Below, one piece after another: positions 5,104 to 12,941 of a stretch of 64,000 nucleotides of DNA. Positions within the stretch are counted from its first letter, which is position 1. Every line of letters begins with the position of its first letter. The position numbers were made by a program, and so were the translations under genes. The stretch is from Stutzerimonas stutzeri (GTDB taxonomy: Bacteria > Pseudomonadota > Gammaproteobacteria > Pseudomonadales > Pseudomonadaceae), in contig NZ_JAMOIC010000012.1 in assembly GCF_024448895.1 (NCBI RefSeq), positions 62,001-126,000 on the forward strand, in the 5' to 3' direction. The notes under the pieces were generated by a model, which was given only the letters and a program-made list of their open reading frames with translations, made no database searches and was not told the DNA's origin.

Positions 5104-5967
5104 TCAAAGCCTTGCGAACTGAAGGTAGCTTGACGTGATCTGGTCACCCCACAACAGGGCGATCCAGCCGGCAATAGCCAAGTATGGGCCAAAGGGGATA
5201 GCCGTCCCACTCTCAGCCTTCTGCACGCGCAGCATGATCGTCCCAAGCACTGCACCTACGACAGACGAAAGCAGAATGGTCAGTGGCAGAACCTGCCAGC
5301 CGCCCCAGGCACCGAGCATCGCCAATAGCTTGAAATCCCCGTAGCCCATGCCCTCTTTACCGGTGATGAGCTTGAACAACCAGTACACGGACCACAGGCT
5401 GAGATACCCAGCAACCGCCCCCCACACTGCGTCCGGCAACGAGGCGAATACCCCGAAGACATTGACGATCAACCCCAGCCAAAGTAGCGGCAGCACGATC
5501 GAGTCGGGCAGCAATTGATGATCGATATCGATCATGCTCATCGCCAAAAGTCCCCAGGTCAGCAGCAACATCGCGCCGGCCTGCCAGGAGAACCCAAAGT
5601 GCCAGGCCACATAGGCGGACAAGAGGCCACAGAGCAGCTCAATCAATGGATAACGGCGACTGATCGACACCCGACAAGACGAGCACTTACCGCGCAGCGC
5701 CAGCCAGCTGACCAAGGGAATATTTTCCCAAGGACGGATCTCATGATCGCAATGCGGGCAGTGAGAGTTGGGAAGCACCAGATTGAAGGTGGAAGCCGGC
5801 TCGGCAGACAGGTCGAGAAACTCGCGCGCCTGAGCACGCCAGTCCCGCTGCATCATGATCGGCAGGCGATGGATGACCACGTTGAGAAAACTGCCCACCA
5901 GCAAACCCAGCACCAGTGCACATAAAACAAAGGCCAGCGTGCTGCTGGCCAGAACGTCGAGAATCAT
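5104..5967 (-). CDS. pilD: Type IV prepilin peptidase / N-methyltransferase
   Basis: A 287-residue inner-membrane aspartyl protease that cuts type III leader peptides from prepilins and methylates the new N-terminus. The cytoplasmic tetracysteine motif is present (C70, C73, C95, C98), as are both catalytic aspartates: D149 in the MIDIDHQLLPD segment and D211 in GYGDFK. The ATG at 5967, four bases after the pilC stop, is chosen over an in-frame GTG 18 bases upstream that would overlap pilC. It should process the short pilin at 9403 and any type II secretion pseudopilins elsewhere. Confidence 0.96.
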   Translation of the reverse strand: MILDVLASSTLAFVLCALVLGLLVGSFLNVVIHRLPIMMQRDWRAQAREFLDLSAEPASTFNLVLPNSHCPHCDHEIRPWENIPLVSWLALRGKCSSCRVSISRRYPLIELLCGLLSAYVAWHFGFSWQAGAMLLLTWGLLAMSMIDIDHQLLPDSIVLPLLWLGLIVNVFGVFASLPDAVWGAVAGYLSLWSVYWLFKLITGKEGMGYGDFKLLAMLGAWGGWQVLPLTILLSSVVGAVLGTIMLRVQKAESGTAIPFGPYLAIAGWIALLWGDQITSSYLQFARL

Positions 5968-5971
5968 TGCT

Positions 5972-7192
5972 TTATCCGACCACACTGCCGAGCTGGAAAA
6001 TGGGCAGGTACATGGCCACGATCAGGCCACCCACGAGCGTACCCAAAACCACCATGATCATCGGCTCCATCAAGGTCGTGAGGTTATCCACCATATTGTC
6101 GACTTCGTCTTCGTAGAACCCGGCGACCTTGTCCAGCATCTCATCCAACGAACCGGATTCTTCGCCGATAGCCGTCATCTGAATCGCCATGGAGGGGAAC
6201 ACACCGGTGGTGCGCATGGAGAAGTTCAGTTGCACGCCGGAGGAAACGTCATTGCGTATCTTGGCGACGGCGTTACGGAAGACCACATTGCCAGTAGCCC
6301 CGGCGACTGAGTCCAACGCATCTACTAGCGGCACCCCTGCAGCGAAGGTCGTCGACAACGTTCGCGCATAGCGAGCCACCACCGCTTTGTACAAAATATC
6401 CCCAACGATCGGGGTCTTCAGCAGACCGCGATCAAGCGCATCGCGGAACTTCTGTGAACGCTTGTAGAAATGTTTGAACGTGAAGGCGAACAGGAACAAC
6501 CCGATCCCCACTAGATACCACCACTCCTGCAGCCATCGGGACAGCCCGACCACCATCATGGTGAACGCGGGCAATTCGGCACCAAAACCTTGGAACACAC
6601 TTTCGAATTGCGGCACCACTTTTATCAGAAGAACGGCGGACACGATGATCGCAACAATGATGACCGCGATCGGATAAGTCATTGCCTTCTTGATCTTTGC
6701 CTTGAGCTGCTCAGTTTTCTCTTTATAGGTCGCAACTCGGTCCAGCAGCGTCTCAAGCGCACCCGATTGCTCACCGGACTCCACCAGGTTGCAGTAGAGA
6801 TCATCGAAATACTGTGGCTTCTTGCGCAGGGAGCCAGCGAAGCTGTTACCCGCCGCCACCTCCTGTTTAACCTCGTCCACCAACTTGCGCATGTTGGGGT
6901 TGTCGAAGCCCTCGCCAATAATATCGAACGACTGCAACAGCGGCACGCCCGCCTTCATCATGGTCGCCATCTGCCGAGTGAACAGCGCGATGTCCATGGG
7001 TTTGATCTTTTTACCAGCACCGAACAGCGAGACGGCTTTCTTGCGCACCTTGAGCGGATTGATACCCTGCTTGCGGAGTTGCGCCTTGATCAGCGCCGGA
7101 CTTTGGCCGGATAGCTCACCCTTGATCTTGCTGCCCTTGCGGTCAGTCCCTTCCCAGGTGAACACACTGGTTTTCAACGCTTTTTCCGCCAT
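5972..7192 (-). CDS. pilC: Type IV pilus inner-membrane platform protein
   Basis: A 406-residue GspF/PilC-family protein with two repeated cytoplasmic domains (FTRQMATMMKAGVPLLQSFDIIGEG near the N-terminus, and TLSTTFAAGVPLVDALDSV further on) and three membrane spans. It couples the PilB/PilT motors to pilin addition and removal. The length and the ending (MYLPIFQLGSVVG) are canonical. It sits between pilB and pilD, two bases after the pilB stop. Confidence 0.97.
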   Translation of the reverse strand: MAEKALKTSVFTWEGTDRKGSKIKGELSGQSPALIKAQLRKQGINPLKVRKKAVSLFGAGKKIKPMDIALFTRQMATMMKAGVPLLQSFDIIGEGFDNPNMRKLVDEVKQEVAAGNSFAGSLRKKPQYFDDLYCNLVESGEQSGALETLLDRVATYKEKTEQLKAKIKKAMTYPIAVIIVAIIVSAVLLIKVVPQFESVFQGFGAELPAFTMMVVGLSRWLQEWWYLVGIGLFLFAFTFKHFYKRSQKFRDALDRGLLKTPIVGDILYKAVVARYARTLSTTFAAGVPLVDALDSVAGATGNVVFRNAVAKIRNDVSSGVQLNFSMRTTGVFPSMAIQMTAIGEESGSLDEMLDKVAGFYEDEVDNMVDNLTTLMEPMIMVVLGTLVGGLIVAMYLPIFQLGSVVG

Positions 7193-7194
7193 GG

Positions 7195-8901
7195 TTAATC
7201 CTTGGTCACGCGGTTGACTTCTTCCAGGCTGGTAATGCCATTCATGGCTTTGACCAGACCGGAAATGCGCAAATCATTGAAACCATCTTTGCGCGCCTGA
7301 ATGGCGATATCGATGGAGTTACCTTCCTCCATGATAAGCCGCTGCAGGGCAGGCGTGATTTTAACCACTTCATAAATACCGACACGGCCCTTGTAGCCGC
7401 CGTTGCAATTATCACAACCCACCGGCCCGTAGAGCTGGAACGTGCCAATCCGGTCTTCCGGGATGCCTTCCTTCAAAAGCGCCTCGCGTGGCACCTCCAC
7501 TTCTTTTTTGCAGCTAGAGCAAAGCTTACGAGCGAGCCGCTGAGCGATGATCAGGTTGACTGATGTGGCAATGTTAAAGGCCGGTACCCCCATGTTACGC
7601 AGACGGGTGAGCGTCTCCGCAGCACTGTTGGTGTGAAGGGTCGACATAACCATATGGCCGGTTTGGGCGGCCTTGACCGCGATCTCCGCAGTCTCCAGGT
7701 CACGAATCTCGCCCACCATGATGATGTCCGGATCCTGGCGCAGGAAGGCGCGCAGCGCCTGGGCGAAATCCATGCCCTGCCGAGGATTAACGTTTACCTG
7801 ATTGATACCTTCGAGGTTGATTTCCACCGGATCTTCAGCGGTTGAGATGTTCACGTCCACTGTATTTAGAATGTTAAGCCCGGTGTACAGGGAAACGGTC
7901 TTACCCGAGCCCGTCGGGCCCGTGACCAGAATCATGCCTTGCGGCTGCTTCAGCGCGGCCATATACAGCGCTTTCTGTTCTTCCTCATAACCCAGCGCAT
8001 CGATCCCCATTTTGGCGCTGGACGAATCCAGAATTCGCATCACAATCTTTTCGCCCCACAGCGTGGGTAGACTGTTGACGCGAAAATCGATGGACTTGGT
8101 CTTGGAGACCTTCATCTTGATCCGCCCGTCCTGCGGCTTGCGCCGCTCGGCAATGTCCAGCGCCGCCATCACCTTGAGGCGCGCCGAAATCCGGCTAACC
8201 AGCTGTACCGGCGGCCGCGCTACCTCATGCAGCACCCCATCGGTGCGAAAGCGGACGCGATATGATTTTTCGTAGGGCTCGAAGTGCAGATCAGATGAGC
8301 CGCGCTTGATCGCATCCAGCAGCATCTTATTGACGAAGCGAACAACCGGGGCGTCATCCGCCTCGTTGTGCTCGCCTTCTTCCTTGGGAGCAGCTCCGCC
8401 ACCTACCTCGATATCCAGATCATCCAGATCGGAGTCCGACAGTCCGTCCAGCGCCGTATTGGCCGACTCGAAAAGCTTTTCGATGGCCTCACCCAGCTTG
8501 TCATCTTCAACCAGCACCGACTCGACCGACAGCCCAGTATTGAATTGAATATCACTGATGGCCTGGTGGTTGGTTGGGTCGGACACCGCCACATACAGTT
8601 TATTGCCGCGACGCTGCAGCGGCAGCACCCGGTGCTGACGGACCAGCTTTTCACTGACGAGATCTTGAGGCTGGGTTTCTTTATCCAGCGTCGTCAGATC
8701 GAAGTACGGAACACCGAACTGCTCACCCGCGACTTCTGCTACCGCCCGGCTTTTGACCAGCTTGTTCTGCACCAGCCAGGAAACCAGCGGCACCTGGTTA
8801 CGCTGGGCCTGCTGCTGCGCCTGCAGCGCAATTTTTTCATCAAGCTGACCGACCAAAACCAACTGGCGAGCCAAACCACCGAGGGGAGCGTTTTCGTTCA
8901 T
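7195..8901 (-). CDS. pilB: Type IV pilus extension ATPase
   Basis: A 568-residue hexameric motor that drives pilus extension. It has an N-terminal regulatory (N1-type) domain over residues 1-140, then the secretion-ATPase core: Walker A GPTGSGKT at 328-335, the GEIRD Walker B region at 393-401, the His box TLHTN at 421-425, and a zinc-type tetracysteine (C461, C464, C496, C499). All catalytic motifs are intact, so this is not a remnant. It is divergent from the short pilin gene across a 500-base region that holds both promoters. Confidence 0.98.
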   Translation of the reverse strand: MNENAPLGGLARQLVLVGQLDEKIALQAQQQAQRNQVPLVSWLVQNKLVKSRAVAEVAGEQFGVPYFDLTTLDKETQPQDLVSEKLVRQHRVLPLQRRGNKLYVAVSDPTNHQAISDIQFNTGLSVESVLVEDDKLGEAIEKLFESANTALDGLSDSDLDDLDIEVGGGAAPKEEGEHNEADDAPVVRFVNKMLLDAIKRGSSDLHFEPYEKSYRVRFRTDGVLHEVARPPVQLVSRISARLKVMAALDIAERRKPQDGRIKMKVSKTKSIDFRVNSLPTLWGEKIVMRILDSSSAKMGIDALGYEEEQKALYMAALKQPQGMILVTGPTGSGKTVSLYTGLNILNTVDVNISTAEDPVEINLEGINQVNVNPRQGMDFAQALRAFLRQDPDIIMVGEIRDLETAEIAVKAAQTGHMVMSTLHTNSAAETLTRLRNMGVPAFNIATSVNLIIAQRLARKLCSSCKKEVEVPREALLKEGIPEDRIGTFQLYGPVGCDNCNGGYKGRVGIYEVVKITPALQRLIMEEGNSIDIAIQARKDGFNDLRISGLVKAMNGITSLEEVNRVTKD

Positions 8902-8937
8902 TGAACTGCCTATAAAGGCTGGGGAAATGTGGCGCCC

Positions 8938-8966
8938 TTATAACGCAGTTCCAAAGACCTGCCAAA
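8938..8966 (-). promoter_or_regulatory. Possible pilBCD promoter
   Basis: On the minus strand TTTGGC (8961-8966) and TTATAA (8938-8943) are 17 bases apart, about 40 bases before the pilB ATG. The match is only moderate. Confidence 0.35.
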
Positions 8967-9077
8967 CGCGCTAACGAGATGTGGCAATTTCTGTCACTTG
9001 TTGACTGGGGGCGTTACTGTCTAACCGAGCTACCCCCCAACAAACCACTAGCTCAACTGACTTACCCGCAGCACACA

Positions 9078-9104
9078 CTGTAGGAGGCGCACCCTCGCGG
9101 CGAA
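9078..9104 (+). repeat. REP-like palindromic unit, copy 1
   Basis: CTGTAGGAGGCGC is followed by a GC-rich imperfect palindrome ending CTCGCGGCGAA. It has the form of Pseudomonas REP elements (TGTAGGAG head plus GC hairpin). It is nearly identical to the units at 9208 and, inverted, at 13003. Confidence 0.75.
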
Positions 9105-9207
9105 ACGCTGTCGAGGTCCCTTATATAAGCGAAGGCATTCGACCGAGGCCAGCGCTAAAGCGCCCACAGCTCAAGCCCAGCGGGCATCAGGCTCTAGATT
9201 CGCACTC

Positions 9208-9233
9208 CTGTAGGAGGCGCGCCCCGCGGCGAA
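9208..9233 (+). repeat. REP-like palindromic unit, copy 2
   Basis: Same orientation as the unit at 9078, about 130 bases downstream, with CTGTAGGAGGCGCGCC and a GCGGCGAA tail. The tandem direct arrangement is common for REP doublets. Confidence 0.75.
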
Positions 9234-9340
9234 AGCTCCGCCAACCAAGTTAAAGTCCGGCGCCACCACCAACCCAGTACAGAAGCCAAAGAGTGAACCA
9301 CCGCACAGCTCCAACTCCTCTCAACGCCTCCCCGCCCCGC

Positions 9341-9357
9341 TTGGCACAGAAGCTGCT
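9341..9357 (+). promoter_or_regulatory. Sigma-54 (RpoN) promoter of the split pilin
   Basis: TTGGCAC begins at 9341. The invariant GG (9343-9344) and GC (9355-9356) are exactly 10 bases apart, in close match to the -24/-12 consensus TGGCAC-N5-TTGCW. Transcription should start near 9368, giving a leader of about 35 bases to the ATG at 9403. Pilin genes of both Pseudomonas and Geobacter are RpoN/PilR dependent. An rpoN gene is in this window at 31287; pilS and pilR are not. Confidence 0.8.
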
Positions 9358-9402
9358 CCTATATCTACAGGTCCAACGACCTCACCAACAAGGAGCTTTT
9401 CA

Positions 9403-9588
9403 ATGCAGTCCATCAAGAAGCAAAAAGGTTTCACTCTGATTGAATTGATGATCGTAATTGCCATTATCGGAATCTTGGCAGCTATCGCAATTCCTCAGTT
9501 CAATGAGTACCGAGCTAAGGCTAATGATACGTCTGCAGTAGCTGACGTAAAAAACGGCACAACCGCCATCATCTCGTCTTTGAACTAA
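9403..9588 (+). CDS. pilA: Short type IV pilin consisting of the N-terminal helix domain only (PilA-N type)
   Basis: A 61-residue prepilin with a 9-residue leader ending in Gly (MQSIKKQKG) and mature start [18 protein letters not shown]. Phe1 and Glu5, needed for methylation and assembly, are present. The mature chain is only 52 residues and stops just after the alpha-1 helix (Pro22 is kept), with no globular beta domain and no C-terminal disulfide loop. Pseudomonas PilA is usually about 140-150 residues. The reading frame does not continue into the next gene, which is in another frame and has its own signal peptide, so this is not a simple nonsense mutant. AAGGAG lies 7 bases before the ATG. 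Base use is more AT-rich than in neighbouring core genes. The closest architecture I know is Geobacter PilA-N. Confidence 0.92.
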
Positions 9589-9610
9589 TCAGAAGCCTTG
9601 GAGGCGTAAA

Positions 9611-10042
9611 ATGAAAAAGCTAACACTATTGATCGCAGGTTTGATGGCTTCTGGAATGGCGTCCGCCGTGACATTTGAGCAGTCTGGCTCGCTCAAGATG
9701 ACCGATTGCGCACCGCTGCTAAATGAGAACGTGCAGATCAATCTGTCGACAGGCGTCGTAGCGGGTGCGTCTTGCAATACTGCTGGCATCGCCTTGGCAG
9801 GCTGCCATACTTCCGGCCGCACAACTGCACGTGAAGTTGAAGTATTGGTGGCGTCGTCAGATCCAACTGCACCGACCGGAACCATGGTTTCGCAGAACCC
9901 GAAAGTCTATAAGACCGCTAAGGGCCCTGCCGTTGCCACCGGATCGACATTCCAGGGGACGGTCGTTTCGCTTTACCCAGAAGCAGCAGCATGTACAACC
10001 GCTGTCGCCGAAGCTGCTGCGACCACGCGGTTAGCTGATTGA
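9611..10042 (+). CDS. Secreted partner of the short pilin (PilA-C / short-pilin-chaperone-like)
   Basis: A 143-residue protein starting 22 bases after the short pilin stop, with GGAGG 6 bases before its ATG. It has a Sec signal peptide (MKKLTLLIAGLMASGMASA, cut after ASA at 17-19) and a mature part of about 124 residues. Four cysteines (C33, C55, C65, C128) could form two disulfides. The segment GCHTSGRTTAREVEVLVASSDP looks like part of a beta-rich pilin head. No type III leader is present, so it cannot enter a pilus by itself. Its position and size suggest it supplies the globular part missing from the neighbouring pilin, as PilA-C does in Geobacter. Direct homology to PilA-C is inferred, not shown. 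Confidence 0.7.
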   Translation: MKKLTLLIAGLMASGMASAVTFEQSGSLKMTDCAPLLNENVQINLSTGVVAGASCNTAGIALAGCHTSGRTTAREVEVLVASSDPTAPTGTMVSQNPKVYKTAKGPAVATGSTFQGTVVSLYPEAAACTTAVAEAAATTRLAD

Positions 10043-10160
10043 TTGCAATAGTACGGTGGAGAGGTCGGTAGTCCTCTCACTTAGAGATACTAGCATTGGC
10101 TAATGCGAAGCCTACCAAGCGGATAAATCCGTGCGGTTACGCATTGCCTGATAGCTACAC
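10043..10160 (+). other. Hairpin-rich 3' untranslated stretch
   Basis: Between the PilA-C-like gene and its terminator are three short inverted repeats: GAGAGG/CCTCTC near 10060, GCATT/AATGC near 10093 and CGGAT/ATCCG near 10120. No tRNA cloverleaf or riboswitch family was recognised. It may be a stabilised mRNA tail or the source of a small RNA. Confidence 0.35.
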
Positions 10161-10195
10161 AAAACCCCCGCCCCTTTCGGCGGGGTTTTGTTTTC
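10161..10195 (+). terminator. Rho-independent terminator after the split pilin pair
   Basis: AAAACCCC(C)GCC, loop, GGCGGGGTTTT, then a further T run. It separates the abundant pilin transcript from the ABC genes downstream, which must then use their own promoter or readthrough. Confidence 0.88.
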
Positions 10196-10400
10196 ACGAT
10201 TACGTTCTACGCCGTCAAAGCCTACTAGTGGGGTGAACCGCTCGCGCTTTTATCCGACAAGCTCAAAAGCCTATAGAAAGTCTGGACAAGCTTTGCGACA
10301 TTTACCCCCAGCTGCACGCTGATAATGCCACGCACCTTCGGCACGCATTACAATCCCAATCTCACGCTCACGTTTAATCTCTTTGGCTAGATAACCTCGC
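10196..10400. other. Spacer before the ABC transporter genes
   Basis: About 205 bases without a convincing gene. It should hold the promoter of the ABC unit, but I could not pick a clear one. The permease ATG at 10401 has only a weak ribosome site. Confidence 0.35.
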
Positions 10401-11210
10401 ATGCGGTCTTTCCCAAACCTATCAACCGGGCTCCGCCTCGCCTTTCGCGCACGATTTGGCTGGCTGACTGGCAACGCGTTGCTAGTTCTAGCCCTCGCGG
10501 TTTTTTTGGCCGCCCAATTCAGCGGCCGCCAACCCGCGACAGTGGCAATGGATATCGGCCTATCGGTGATCCGCCTAATGTTGCCCCTGGTGCTAATATT
10601 GATGACTCAAGAGCTGTTATCACGTGAATTTGATCGGCGTTATTTTTTCAATACTTTGTCGTATCCGCACCCACGGCATCATCTGTTGTTGGGCCGTTTT
10701 ATTGCCGTAGTTCTACTAACGCTCGGGCTGTTAATTTTGCTTGCTGGCGCGCTCGCGCTACTAGTTGGGTTGATAGGTCACGGCTACGCACAGAGCACCC
10801 CGGTTACGCTGGGCACCCATTACCTCGTCACGATTGCGTTCATAAGTTTGGACCTACTACAGCTGAGCGCTGTAGCCACCCTGCTCGCAGTGCTCGCCTC
10901 CACACCCAGCTTTGTACTAATCGGCACCTTAGGCTTTATGCTCGTGGCTCGTTCATTTGGCGCAATAGTTGAACTGCTGACCCGCAACACAACGGTAGTG
11001 AACGATGCCGACGGTTACCGCTCCGGCGTCGACCTACTGAGCTACCTGCTGCCCGATCTAGGCGCGCTGGATGTGCGCATGGTCACTCTCTATGGTCGGA
11101 TGGAATTGCTACCCGCCGACTGGCCCTGGCTGGTGATGTCAAATCTGACTTACATAGTCGGCTTGCTGGCCTTGGCAGTTTGGGCTCTGCAACGAAAGCG
11201 TTTCGCCTGA
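10401..11210 (+). CDS. ABC-2 type transporter permease of the pilin cassette
   Basis: A 269-residue membrane protein with about six predicted spans (first near residues 25-42, last near 243-263). It has the ABC-2 exporter layout with an N-terminal cytoplasmic segment. The segment QELLSREFDRRYFFNTLSYPHPRHHLLLGR between the second and third spans is a typical coupling-helix region. It lies one base before the periplasmic protein gene and in a unit with the ATPase at 12045. Codon use includes many cta and tta codons, unlike the flanking core genes. The substrate is unknown. A Geobacter pilA locus also has ABC genes downstream, as I recall. Confidence 0.75.
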   Translation: MRSFPNLSTGLRLAFRARFGWLTGNALLVLALAVFLAAQFSGRQPATVAMDIGLSVIRLMLPLVLILMTQELLSREFDRRYFFNTLSYPHPRHHLLLGRFIAVVLLTLGLLILLAGALALLVGLIGHGYAQSTPVTLGTHYLVTIAFISLDLLQLSAVATLLAVLASTPSFVLIGTLGFMLVARSFGAIVELLTRNTTVVNDADGYRSGVDLLSYLLPDLGALDVRMVTLYGRMELLPADWPWLVMSNLTYIVGLLALAVWALQRKRFA

Positions 11211-11211
11211 T

Positions 11212-12048
11212 ATGCATAGACGCCGCTCGCTATCGATTGCCCTGCTTAGTTTCGCGCTGTTCGCCGGGATCGCCACCTGGCGCGCGCAGCAACCAGTGGC
11301 ACTGACACCGCAATTCTTCACCGACCGAGTAGTGATTCCTGCACCATTGCTAATCGCGCTTCATGGCGGCGACCGCTTTCTAGCGGCAGACCTTGAAACT
11401 ATGCGCCTGGCTGCCACTGGCATAGATGACCGCGGCGCTGATACCGATTATCTGGTCCGCGCTCAGCGCGAAGTCGCACGGCTCAACCCCTGCCACGAAG
11501 ACAACTACTATTTAGCAAACGGTCTGCTGACTTGGGGCGGAGCGGTAGAAGAAGGCAATGACGTTTTGCGTGCGGCCGTCGAGTGCCGTTTCTGGGATGA
11601 AATTCCGCCCTTCTTCTATGGCATTAACCTCTCGTTCTTCCAGCACAACAACGAAGAAGCCGCGCGGGTTTTGGAGATTGGCGCAGAGCGCTCTCCGCAG
11701 AACGCCGCCGCCATGCGCAAACTAGCGGTGATGCTGCGCGCCGAGCAGTTCGCCGACGAACGCCTGGCACTCAACTACCTGATTCAACAACGTGACAGCG
11801 CAGCCGACCCAAAGCTGCGAGATATGCTCGACAAGCGCGTTGTTCGCCTTCTGGGTCTGATCGCGCTGCGCGAGGCGCAACGCCGCTATGAAGACAAACA
11901 TGGTCCACTGCTAACACTTGAGCAGTTGGTCGAACAGCACCTGATCGACAACCTGCCAGCCGACCCACTGCGCCTCGGCTATGAGCTGCGTGACGGGCGC
12001 ATCGAACTAAAGAAATTGAAAATCGCCGGATTGGAGGAACAACCTTGA
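11212..12048 (+). CDS. Periplasmic TPR-like protein with a pseudopilin-like C-terminus
   Basis: A 278-residue protein with an uncleaved-looking N-terminal membrane anchor (residues 6-21) and a periplasmic body. Residues 85-200 form helical pairs resembling TPR repeats (LNPCHEDNYYLANGLL, AARVLEIGAERSP). Residues 219-266 (RRYEDKHG, LTLEQLVEQHLI, LPADPLRLGYELRDGRI) match the pattern at the end of type II pseudopilins and related proteins, where a short helix is followed by 'LP.DP..G.Y....DG'. It starts one base after the permease stop and overlaps the ATPase gene by four bases. It may bind pilin-like substrates; this is inference. Confidence 0.6.
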   Translation: MHRRRSLSIALLSFALFAGIATWRAQQPVALTPQFFTDRVVIPAPLLIALHGGDRFLAADLETMRLAATGIDDRGADTDYLVRAQREVARLNPCHEDNYYLANGLLTWGGAVEEGNDVLRAAVECRFWDEIPPFFYGINLSFFQHNNEEAARVLEIGAERSPQNAAAMRKLAVMLRAEQFADERLALNYLIQQRDSAADPKLRDMLDKRVVRLLGLIALREAQRRYEDKHGPLLTLEQLVEQHLIDNLPADPLRLGYELRDGRIELKKLKIAGLEEQP

Positions 12049-12941
12049 GCGCAGCCGTTGAGTTTAAGGGTGTCAGCCATACCTACCAAGCCAAGGGCAA
12101 ACAGGTCCAGGCGGTGCGGGATGTAAGCTTCAGCCTGTCCGAGGGCGAGGTGTTCGGCTTTGTCGGCCCCAACGGCGCTGGCAAGTCCACCACGATCAAG
12201 ATCATGCTGGACATCATTAACGACTACCAGGGTCAGGTGACGCTTTACGGCATTGACGCCCGCCGGGCCGAAGCCCGCCAGGGCATGGCCTATGTGCCGG
12301 AAGCGCCGGCGCTGTACGACCAATTCACGCCGCTGGAAATACTGCGCATGGGCCTGTCCATGTATGGCATCAAGCGCAGCGACGCGGATGCCTGGTGTTT
12401 GCAGTGGCTGGAGCGATTCTCCGTGGACGGCACCGGTAAACGGCGGATGCGCGAACTCTCCAAGGGCAACGCACAGCGGGTCGCACTGGCTCATGCCATG
12501 GCGGTGGAGCCACGACTGCTGATCCTCGACGAGCCGCTGTCTGGCCTCGACCCGGTGGGCCGTAAGGATGTGGTCGAGATTCTCAATGAGTACAAGAAAC
12601 AAGGTGGCGCGATTTTCTTCACTTCTCACGTGCTGCATGACGTGGAACGAATCGCCGACCGCTTCGGCTTTATCAACAAAGGCCAGCTGGTCACCGTCCG
12701 CTCGCCTCGCGAATTGGCCGCAGAACGCGCTGATTGTTTTATTCTGCGTTACCAGGCGGATCAGTCGCTAACGCCAGCGTGTATCGCACTTCGTCCTGGC
12801 GAGTTCGAGTGCGAGCTTGCACAAAGCGAGCTACCGGCTGCCATCGCGCAGCTGGGCAACACCGGTGGCCATCTGCTGACCGTCAAGCCTGCCGTATCGC
12901 TAGAAACCCTGTTCTTCCGCATTCTCGCCGAAGCCTCCTAG
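12045..12941 (+). CDS. ABC transporter ATP-binding protein of the pilin cassette
   Basis: A 298-residue ABC-2 family ATPase. Walker A is GPNGAGKST, the Q-loop region reads YVPEAPALYDQ, the signature is LSKGN (Lys in place of the second Gly of LSGGQ, as in several DrrA/CcmA-type exporters), and Walker B is LLILDEPLSGLDP with a switch His in TSHVLHDVERIAD. About 75 extra C-terminal residues follow the nucleotide-binding domain. It overlaps the TPR-like gene in an ATGA-type coupling (12045-12048), so the permease, periplasmic protein and ATPase form one unit. Confidence 0.85.
   Translation: MSAAVEFKGVSHTYQAKGKQVQAVRDVSFSLSEGEVFGFVGPNGAGKSTTIKIMLDIINDYQGQVTLYGIDARRAEARQGMAYVPEAPALYDQFTPLEILRMGLSMYGIKRSDADAWCLQWLERFSVDGTGKRRMRELSKGNAQRVALAHAMAVEPRLLILDEPLSGLDPVGRKDVVEILNEYKKQGGAIFFTSHVLHDVERIADRFGFINKGQLVTVRSPRELAAERADCFILRYQADQSLTPACIALRPGEFECELAQSELPAAIAQLGNTGGHLLTVKPAVSLETLFFRILAEAS

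Follow-up and report, generated by a model that had tools for sequence, protein, structure and literature searches.

The window described here is the whole 64,000-nucleotide stretch of a Stutzerimonas stutzeri contig (NZ_JAMOIC010000012.1) that was analysed. Beside pilB it carries a short pilin gene and, directly behind it, a gene for a secreted-looking protein, here called the partner. The genes and signals of this region are as follows.

5104..5985, minus strand: pilD, prepilin peptidase, not part of the exchanged block (prepilin peptidase family match)
5972..7192, minus strand: pilC, in the allele that goes with the short pilin (T2SSF match)
7195..8901, minus strand: pilB, in the allele that goes with the short pilin (TIGR02538 at 860 bits, cut-off 676)
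9342..9357, plus strand: site resembling an RpoN (sigma-54) promoter, TGGCAC-N5-CTGCT, 61 nt ahead of the ATG of the pilin
9403..9588, plus strand: short type IVa pilin of 61 residues, a 9-residue leader and a 52-residue mature chain, helix only (open reading frame, PDB matches)
9600..9604, plus strand: GGAGG ribosome-binding site of the partner gene (read from the sequence)
9611..10042, plus strand: secreted partner of 143 residues, putative second pilin chain (open reading frame; signal peptide 9611-9667 by eye)
10166..10190, plus strand: intrinsic terminator-like hairpin with 7 G-C pairs and a T-rich tail, after the pilin-partner pair
10401..11210, plus strand: ABC-2 permease of the module (PF12730)
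11212..12048, plus strand: conserved 278-residue protein of the ABC cluster (Pfam and NCBIfam gave no match)
12045..12941, plus strand: ABC ATPase of the module, TTG start (PF00005)

The two reading frames of the pair (9403-9588 and 9611-10042), their spacing and their frames are exactly as an earlier note on this DNA had claimed: the partner frame starts 22 nt past the pilin frame, in a different frame. GGAGG stands six bases ahead of its ATG. The pilin has an N-methylation motif (Pfam PF07963, E 2.7e-12), and a cut after the usual glycine leaves 52 residues; it gave no match to PF00114, the one-chain PilA family, in a search whose control was positive in only 1 of 14 genomes. The N-terminus of the partner resembles a signal peptide (MKKLTLLIAGLMASGMASA), as judged by eye both here and in its relatives, and the mature protein would comprise 124 residues, with cysteines at positions 14, 36, 46 and 109. 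Single-sequence searches with the partner found no Pfam, NCBIfam or PHROGs family, a phage protein family was considered and none matched, and the PDB search gave no match better than E 0.88. AlphaFold2, run on two sequences (the window partner and that of Thauera), returned a pLDDT of 35, too low for the model to be of use. A REP-like repeat of the Pseudomonas type (GTAGGAGGCGC...GCGGCGAAA) occurs twice between pilB and the pilin gene, at 9080-9110 and 9210-9240.

The pilB, pilC and pilD genes are intact by family match, and the features that characterise a type IVa system are present, namely a class III leader with an N-methyl motif, PilB, PilC, PilD and PilT-family genes; the last are two adjacent genes above cut-off, presumably PilT and PilU. 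The check for a full-length PilA elsewhere in the assembly, which is listed as 100% complete, found none. Ten N-methyl places lie above cut-off, comprising the window pilin, four in a type II secretion cluster and five in a minor-pilin cluster (PilY1, PilW, PilV). Those classified, other than the window pilin, are minor pilins beside PilY1 or type II secretion pseudopilins, and no other full-length major pilin is seen among the places tested. A 147-residue pilin on contig C15 was considered as the major pilin and rejected, as it adjoins PilY1, shares a gene cluster with PilW and PilV and has the ComP_DUS domain of minor pilins.

The site ahead of the pilin, which we take to be of sigma-54 type by its consensus, belongs to a pattern common to the genus. 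A GG-N10-GC site is found in 55 of 57 pilA loci, upstream by 61-65 nt where the pilin is short and by 71-75 nt where it is full-length, and 54 of the 57 loci score at least 9 as sigma-54-type sites, against a rate of 0.8% in shuffled sequence.

Distribution and probable exchange of the short-pilin locus

In 36 of 56 genomes of the genus, the gene adjoining pilB is an ordinary PilA of 130-174 residues; in the other 20 it is a short pilin, and a secreted-looking protein is encoded behind it. Seventeen of these 20 have a partner of the profile family and three (G021, G024 and G037) a divergent partner. Genome G019 (73% complete), counted as short, has both short-pilin and full-length pilA loci (L076, L119) in one fragmented assembly of 510 contigs, which may result from contamination. 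G009 and G025, with 56-residue pilins and a very divergent PilB (47-48%), appear to form a separate lineage of the split locus, and at their loci (L117, L118) no sigma-54-type site is found within 150 nt of the pilin.

A first scan of the genome collection with the partner gave no match. The single-sequence search found it in 9 of the 56 genomes, the window's own included, and the partner profile in 18 of 56; one profile match, G023 (E 0.003, internal stop), was dropped from the partner counts. In a draw from the family the profile matched 35 of 398 genomes (G023 included), 17 of them outside the genus, in two further genera. A pilin of 56-63 residues precedes the partner in all 34 Pseudomonadaceae genomes in which the partner is intact (17 of this genus, 17 of the two others), and the pilin end is separated from the partner's likely start codon by 11-33 nt; with the first possible start codon instead, the spacing ranges upwards from a 1 nt overlap. 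The earlier note had treated the arrangement as a property of this strain, but two alternative modules exist across the genus, and the short-pilin one extends to two more genera of Pseudomonadaceae.

The claim that both halves are intact, by contrast, is borne out. The pair is kept in every one of these 34 genomes, and the partner is under purifying selection. Seven partner pairs at least 60% identical were compared; two have saturated dS and are not measurable, and the other five (three of this family, two of the divergent type) give dN/dS values of 0.06-0.13, which indicates purifying selection. The four cysteines are invariant across 35 aligned mature partners, and 33 of the 35 have six. 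A variable stretch lies ahead of the last third of the partner.

At several loci a second pilin-like frame is seen past the partner (L034:2054-2236, L039:2018-2197, L041:1976-2239, L057, L059, L061 and L062 in Pseudomonadaceae, and L195:6792-6980 in Lampropedia). These frames are 59-91 residues long as read, mostly 59-65, and give a cluster of short pilin, partner and short pilin. In G051 a second, divergent partner gene (L048:1501-1935) stands in tandem directly behind the first.

The short pilin is tied to other genes as well. The ABC-2 permease is present in 19 of the 20 short-pilin genomes and in none of the 36 others (Fisher p 5e-14, with relatedness ignored); the exception, G025, counts against strict linkage. 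The terminator-like hairpin also counts against reading these genes as one module, since it lies between the pair and the ABC genes, and co-transcription of the two may fail.

The extent of the linked block was delimited by comparing the window, gene by gene, with three genomes of the short-pilin group (G053, G027, G049) and four of the full-length group (G055, G046, G023, G026). Identity in pilC is 95-97% in the short-pilin genomes and 80-83% in the full-length ones, in the N-terminus of pilB 93-99% against 62-64%, and in the remainder of pilB 98-99% against 88-89%. On the other hand, coaE (79-86%) and pilD (88-93%) are similar regardless of pilin type, and cysNC and cysD, where found, are 95-99% identical in both groups. 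The partner and ABC genes were not found in the four full-length genomes. As identity drops at pilC and pilB and is equal in both groups outside, the exchanged block would span about 5972-12941. In G027 (L291, right of about 13000) other genes take the place of cysNC and cysD, unlike in the other six stretches, so that the right flank of the module varies.

Phylogenies point the same way. For the 56 genomes, a gatB tree requires 14 changes of pilin type, and well-supported branches force at least 11 of these; the mean after shuffling is about 17, and pilin type is thus hardly clustered. On a tree of 200 residues from the PilB N-terminus it needs one change, and none of 500 shuffles gave a number as low. 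Both are quick trees, gatB may itself recombine, and G009 and G025 form long PilB branches. The contrast between one change and about 14 suggests that the modules have been swapped repeatedly between species, and we regard this as the simplest reading of the sequences. The earlier note's picture of pilin and partner is partly supported and incomplete, for it lacked the linked ABC transporter and the co-inherited pilB and pilC alleles.

Spread on plasmids was considered and rejected, as the partner was not found in 72,556 plasmid records; at the DNA level 8 records matched, over no more than the conserved beginning of the pilin gene (3% of the query). Strict linkage to PilB also fails past the genus. 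In Pseudomonas mendocina (L174), whose PilB is 80% identical to the window's, two tandem pilins of 109 and 112 residues (L174:5544-6327) adjoin PilB and represent a third architecture. For Stutzerimonas balearica, the available text of one report mentions, upstream of pilB, nothing beyond a gene whose identity to PilAI is low (PMC10234333).

Split pilins beyond the family and their kinship

When named genomes were scanned with the pilin and the best 80 loci kept, 11 pilin frames of at most 95 residues were found, in 9 of the 80. At eight of these nine loci the short pilin is followed by a secreted-looking frame: Thauera propionica (L126), Accumulibacter (L167), a Burkholderiaceae MAG (L185), Lampropedia (L195), Desulfocapsa, a deltaproteobacterial MAG, a Nitrospinota MAG (L191) and a Desulfuromonadales MAG (L127). 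The ninth (L135) has a pilin with masked bases ahead of another pilin. The Desulfuromonadales MAG has two tandem 70-residue short pilins before one partner-like gene (L127:5593-6210). Among the matches listed, the Thauera pilin is 92% identical to that of the window.

In Thauera, Accumulibacter and the Burkholderiaceae MAG the short pilin and secreted partner are accompanied by the three ABC genes in the order seen in the window, although in the last these begin 2.2 kb on; the order recurs more weakly in the deltaproteobacterial MAG, and in Desulfocapsa the genes are present in a different order. The Thauera partner is 42% identical to the window partner, and its permease, middle protein and ATPase are 53%, 54% and 71% identical. 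The partners of L167 and L185, in contrast, are placed, in a loose alignment, with the divergent type A6, which is also found in three genomes of this genus and three of a sister genus. The ATPase is 41-49% identical in L167, L185, L178 and L204. Relatives of the 278-residue protein adjoin the other two ABC genes in L126, L167, L185 and L178 and, with the Accumulibacter protein as query, in L204, so that this protein travels with the permease and ATPase over beta-, gamma- and deltaproteobacterial loci. Next to the pairs of L127, L191 and L195 the search gave no ABC genes, the L191 sequence stopping 1.5 kb past the pilin. A class-wide draw gave the partner profile in 3 of 369 genomes; two belong to this genus and the third, with a 58-residue pilin ahead, to another family. 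The divergent profile matched 3 of 398 genomes in a phylum draw, all of one sister genus. As far as sampled, the pair is therefore concentrated in Pseudomonadaceae.

The three genes that adjoin the pilin form a set like PilGHI of Myxococcus xanthus, with an ABC-2 permease, an ATPase and a third protein near a pilin. The likeness is one of gene content, and the pilin of M. xanthus is full-length. Myxococcota-type loci L190 and L196 contain a related permease (24-29% identical) and ATPase (32-37%) over the pieces found. Deletion of PilGHI in M. xanthus is described, in the text available, as causing defects in S motility and EPS (PMC5544727).

The arrangement of the pair also recalls PilA-N/PilA-C of Geobacter (GSU1496/GSU1497; PDB 7tgg, 9egp), in which a short N-methyl helix pilin is likewise followed by a separately exported protein. 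In the PDB the window pilin matches chains of Geopilin domain 1 best, and these take the first three places (E 2e-17 to 3e-14; 65, 63 and 55 bits, with the next pilin at 45). There are differences, however. The mature pilin here has 52 residues against 61, without the later aromatics. The window-type partner has 4-6 cysteines and the variable stretch, and the host belongs to Pseudomonadaceae. Conductivity of the Geobacter e-pilins is linked to aromatic residues at positions 24, 27, 32, 51 and 57; those at 32, 51 and 57 are absent from the window pilin, which has only F1, F24 and Y27.

Evidence for kinship of the partner with the second Geobacter chain, PilA-C, is less direct. The top PDB match of the full-length partner profile is a Geopilin domain 2 (PilA-C) chain at E 0.0064, a match that leans on the signal peptide, and profiles of the mature partner found no PDB chain. 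Comparisons by hhalign gave P values of 0.004-0.022 and probabilities below 10% overall; for the mature partner profile against PilA-C, P is 0.017 and the probability 2.7%. With the mature-only profile A4, shuffling gave p values, uncorrected and for partial PDB pieces, of 0.0005 for 9egp_B, 0.035 for 7tgg_a and 0.010 for the Nitrospinota protein of L191; with the divergent profile A6 the corresponding values, with the same qualification, were 0.029, 0.0075 and 0.008, and 0.016 for L204. Three of six PilA-C-like proteins thus fall below 0.05 with A4 and four with A6, whereas L127 and L178 give no signal with either and L204 none with A4. The partner profile and 9egp_B both show the order S-x-x-V ... 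H-x-x-G, and strong divergence marks the window-type partner, a property that the accessible part of one report ascribes to PilA-C (PMC6201914). The homology is not significant on the mature sequence alone, and we regard it as suggestive. The Geobacter-like design proposed in the earlier note is upheld for the helix and for the adjoining exported partner, with the kinship of partner and PilA-C at this suggestive level.

The ordinary Pseudomonas PilA shares with the window pilin the site beside pilB, the RpoN-type site and the N-methyl helix, but is a single chain, whereas here the head is on a separate gene, with other pilB and pilC alleles, an ABC transporter and no PF00114 match. When the C-domains of 37 local full-length PilA proteins were compared with the partner profile, none fell below p 0.09 (200 shuffles each). 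A tree of the helices places all short pilins, including the beta- and delta-type, on one side and the 37 full-length pilins on another; it has 52 columns, weak support and long branches, and its PilE outgroup is misplaced among the short pilins. The grouping of the short helices and the lack of likeness of the partner to local PilA fit acquisition by transfer and do not fit recent local fission. Of the two origins that the earlier note had offered, transfer is thus favoured, and common ancestry of the split pilins appears, from these comparisons, more likely than local fission.

A probable two-chain pilus and its alternatives

We consider it probable that an intact module for a two-chain, Geobacter-like type IVa pilus lies here, one that can be exchanged and has spread by transfer. 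This reading is favoured by the conservation of the pair, the purifying selection on the partner, the position of the short pilin in pilA's place with an RpoN-type site, the lack of another major pilin among the places tested and the linkage to the permease. The short gene would supply a membrane helix with the processing and packing signals, which PilD would process once it is inserted. The partner would be exported separately by its signal peptide, form disulfides and fold into a globular chain that docks in the periplasm on the exposed half of the helix, where it stands in for the head of an ordinary pilin. PilB and PilC would then polymerise the helix-partner complex, and the PilT-family motors could retract the pilus. 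The PilGHI-like transporter, with its 278-residue companion, and the module's own pilC and pilB alleles would complete the set. Recombination would have put this set in place of the one-chain pilA module, at one and the same position in the chromosome and many times among species. We infer the docking, the disulfides, the presence of both chains in the filament and the role of the transporter.

A first alternative, unlikely but the strongest of those considered, is that the partner acts as a periplasmic chaperone or stabiliser outside a helix-only pilus. In Geobacter, according to the portions of the reports at hand, no stable PilA was found without GSU1497 (PMC5174107), and the presence of PilA-C in wild-type pili is disputed (PMC9207759). 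Against this, PDB 7tgg contains both geopilin domains, and the Geobacter pilin is called heterodimeric, with a PilA-N of 61 and a PilA-C of 104 residues, in the available text of another (PMC11046646). The partner, moreover, varies as a surface-exposed chain would (its relatives are 21-59% identical), while the helix hardly varies.

It is quite improbable that the partner is instead an adhesin, a glycan-binding protein or an electron-transfer accessory that decorates the pilus. Its cysteines, its hypervariability and the tandem duplication in G051 would suit such a role, but it lies directly behind the pilin in 38 of 38 loci checked, a headless pilus of 52-residue helices would be unusual, the disputed e-pili of Geobacter aside, and the pilin lacks the three conductivity-linked aromatics.

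We give very little weight to the idea that the pair arose by recent fission of a local Pseudomonas pilA. The site and promoter type are indeed those of pilA, yet the short helices fall with short pilins of beta and delta type (on few columns and weak support), the partner is unlike the local C-domains, the linked pilB, pilC and ABC genes differ too, and a pilin with 92% identity occurs in Thauera. Finally, a pilA broken by frameshift, sequencing error or pseudogene formation can be set aside, since nothing was found in its favour, the pair is conserved in dozens of genomes and the partner has its own ribosome site and signal peptide and is under purifying selection.

The two-chain reading can be extended, tentatively and with less than even likelihood, to the locus as a whole. 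One-chain and two-chain pili may be interchangeable alleles of one locus, in which helix, docking head, ABC transporter and matched PilB and PilC move between species as a unit. The transporter might be a dedicated device that loads the separately exported head on to the helix or modifies it, and pilus-binding phages or surfaces might select for both forms.

Many relatives of Pseudomonas thus appear to build their pili from two proteins rather than one, a design known until now chiefly from Geobacter, a distant relative; in the titles and abstract openings searched, no earlier report of a split pilin in these organisms was recognised. The debate over whether the second protein of a split pilin is a pilus component or a helper has drawn chiefly on Geobacter, a lineage that transfers electrons, and close Pseudomonadaceae relatives that carry either form at the same site provide a matched natural experiment. 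Here short pilins occur without the aromatic pattern linked to conductivity, and the little-understood PilGHI-like transporters gain a strict genetic partner. Surveys that seek one full-length pilin, or that dismiss a 61-residue pilin as truncated, will misread such genomes.
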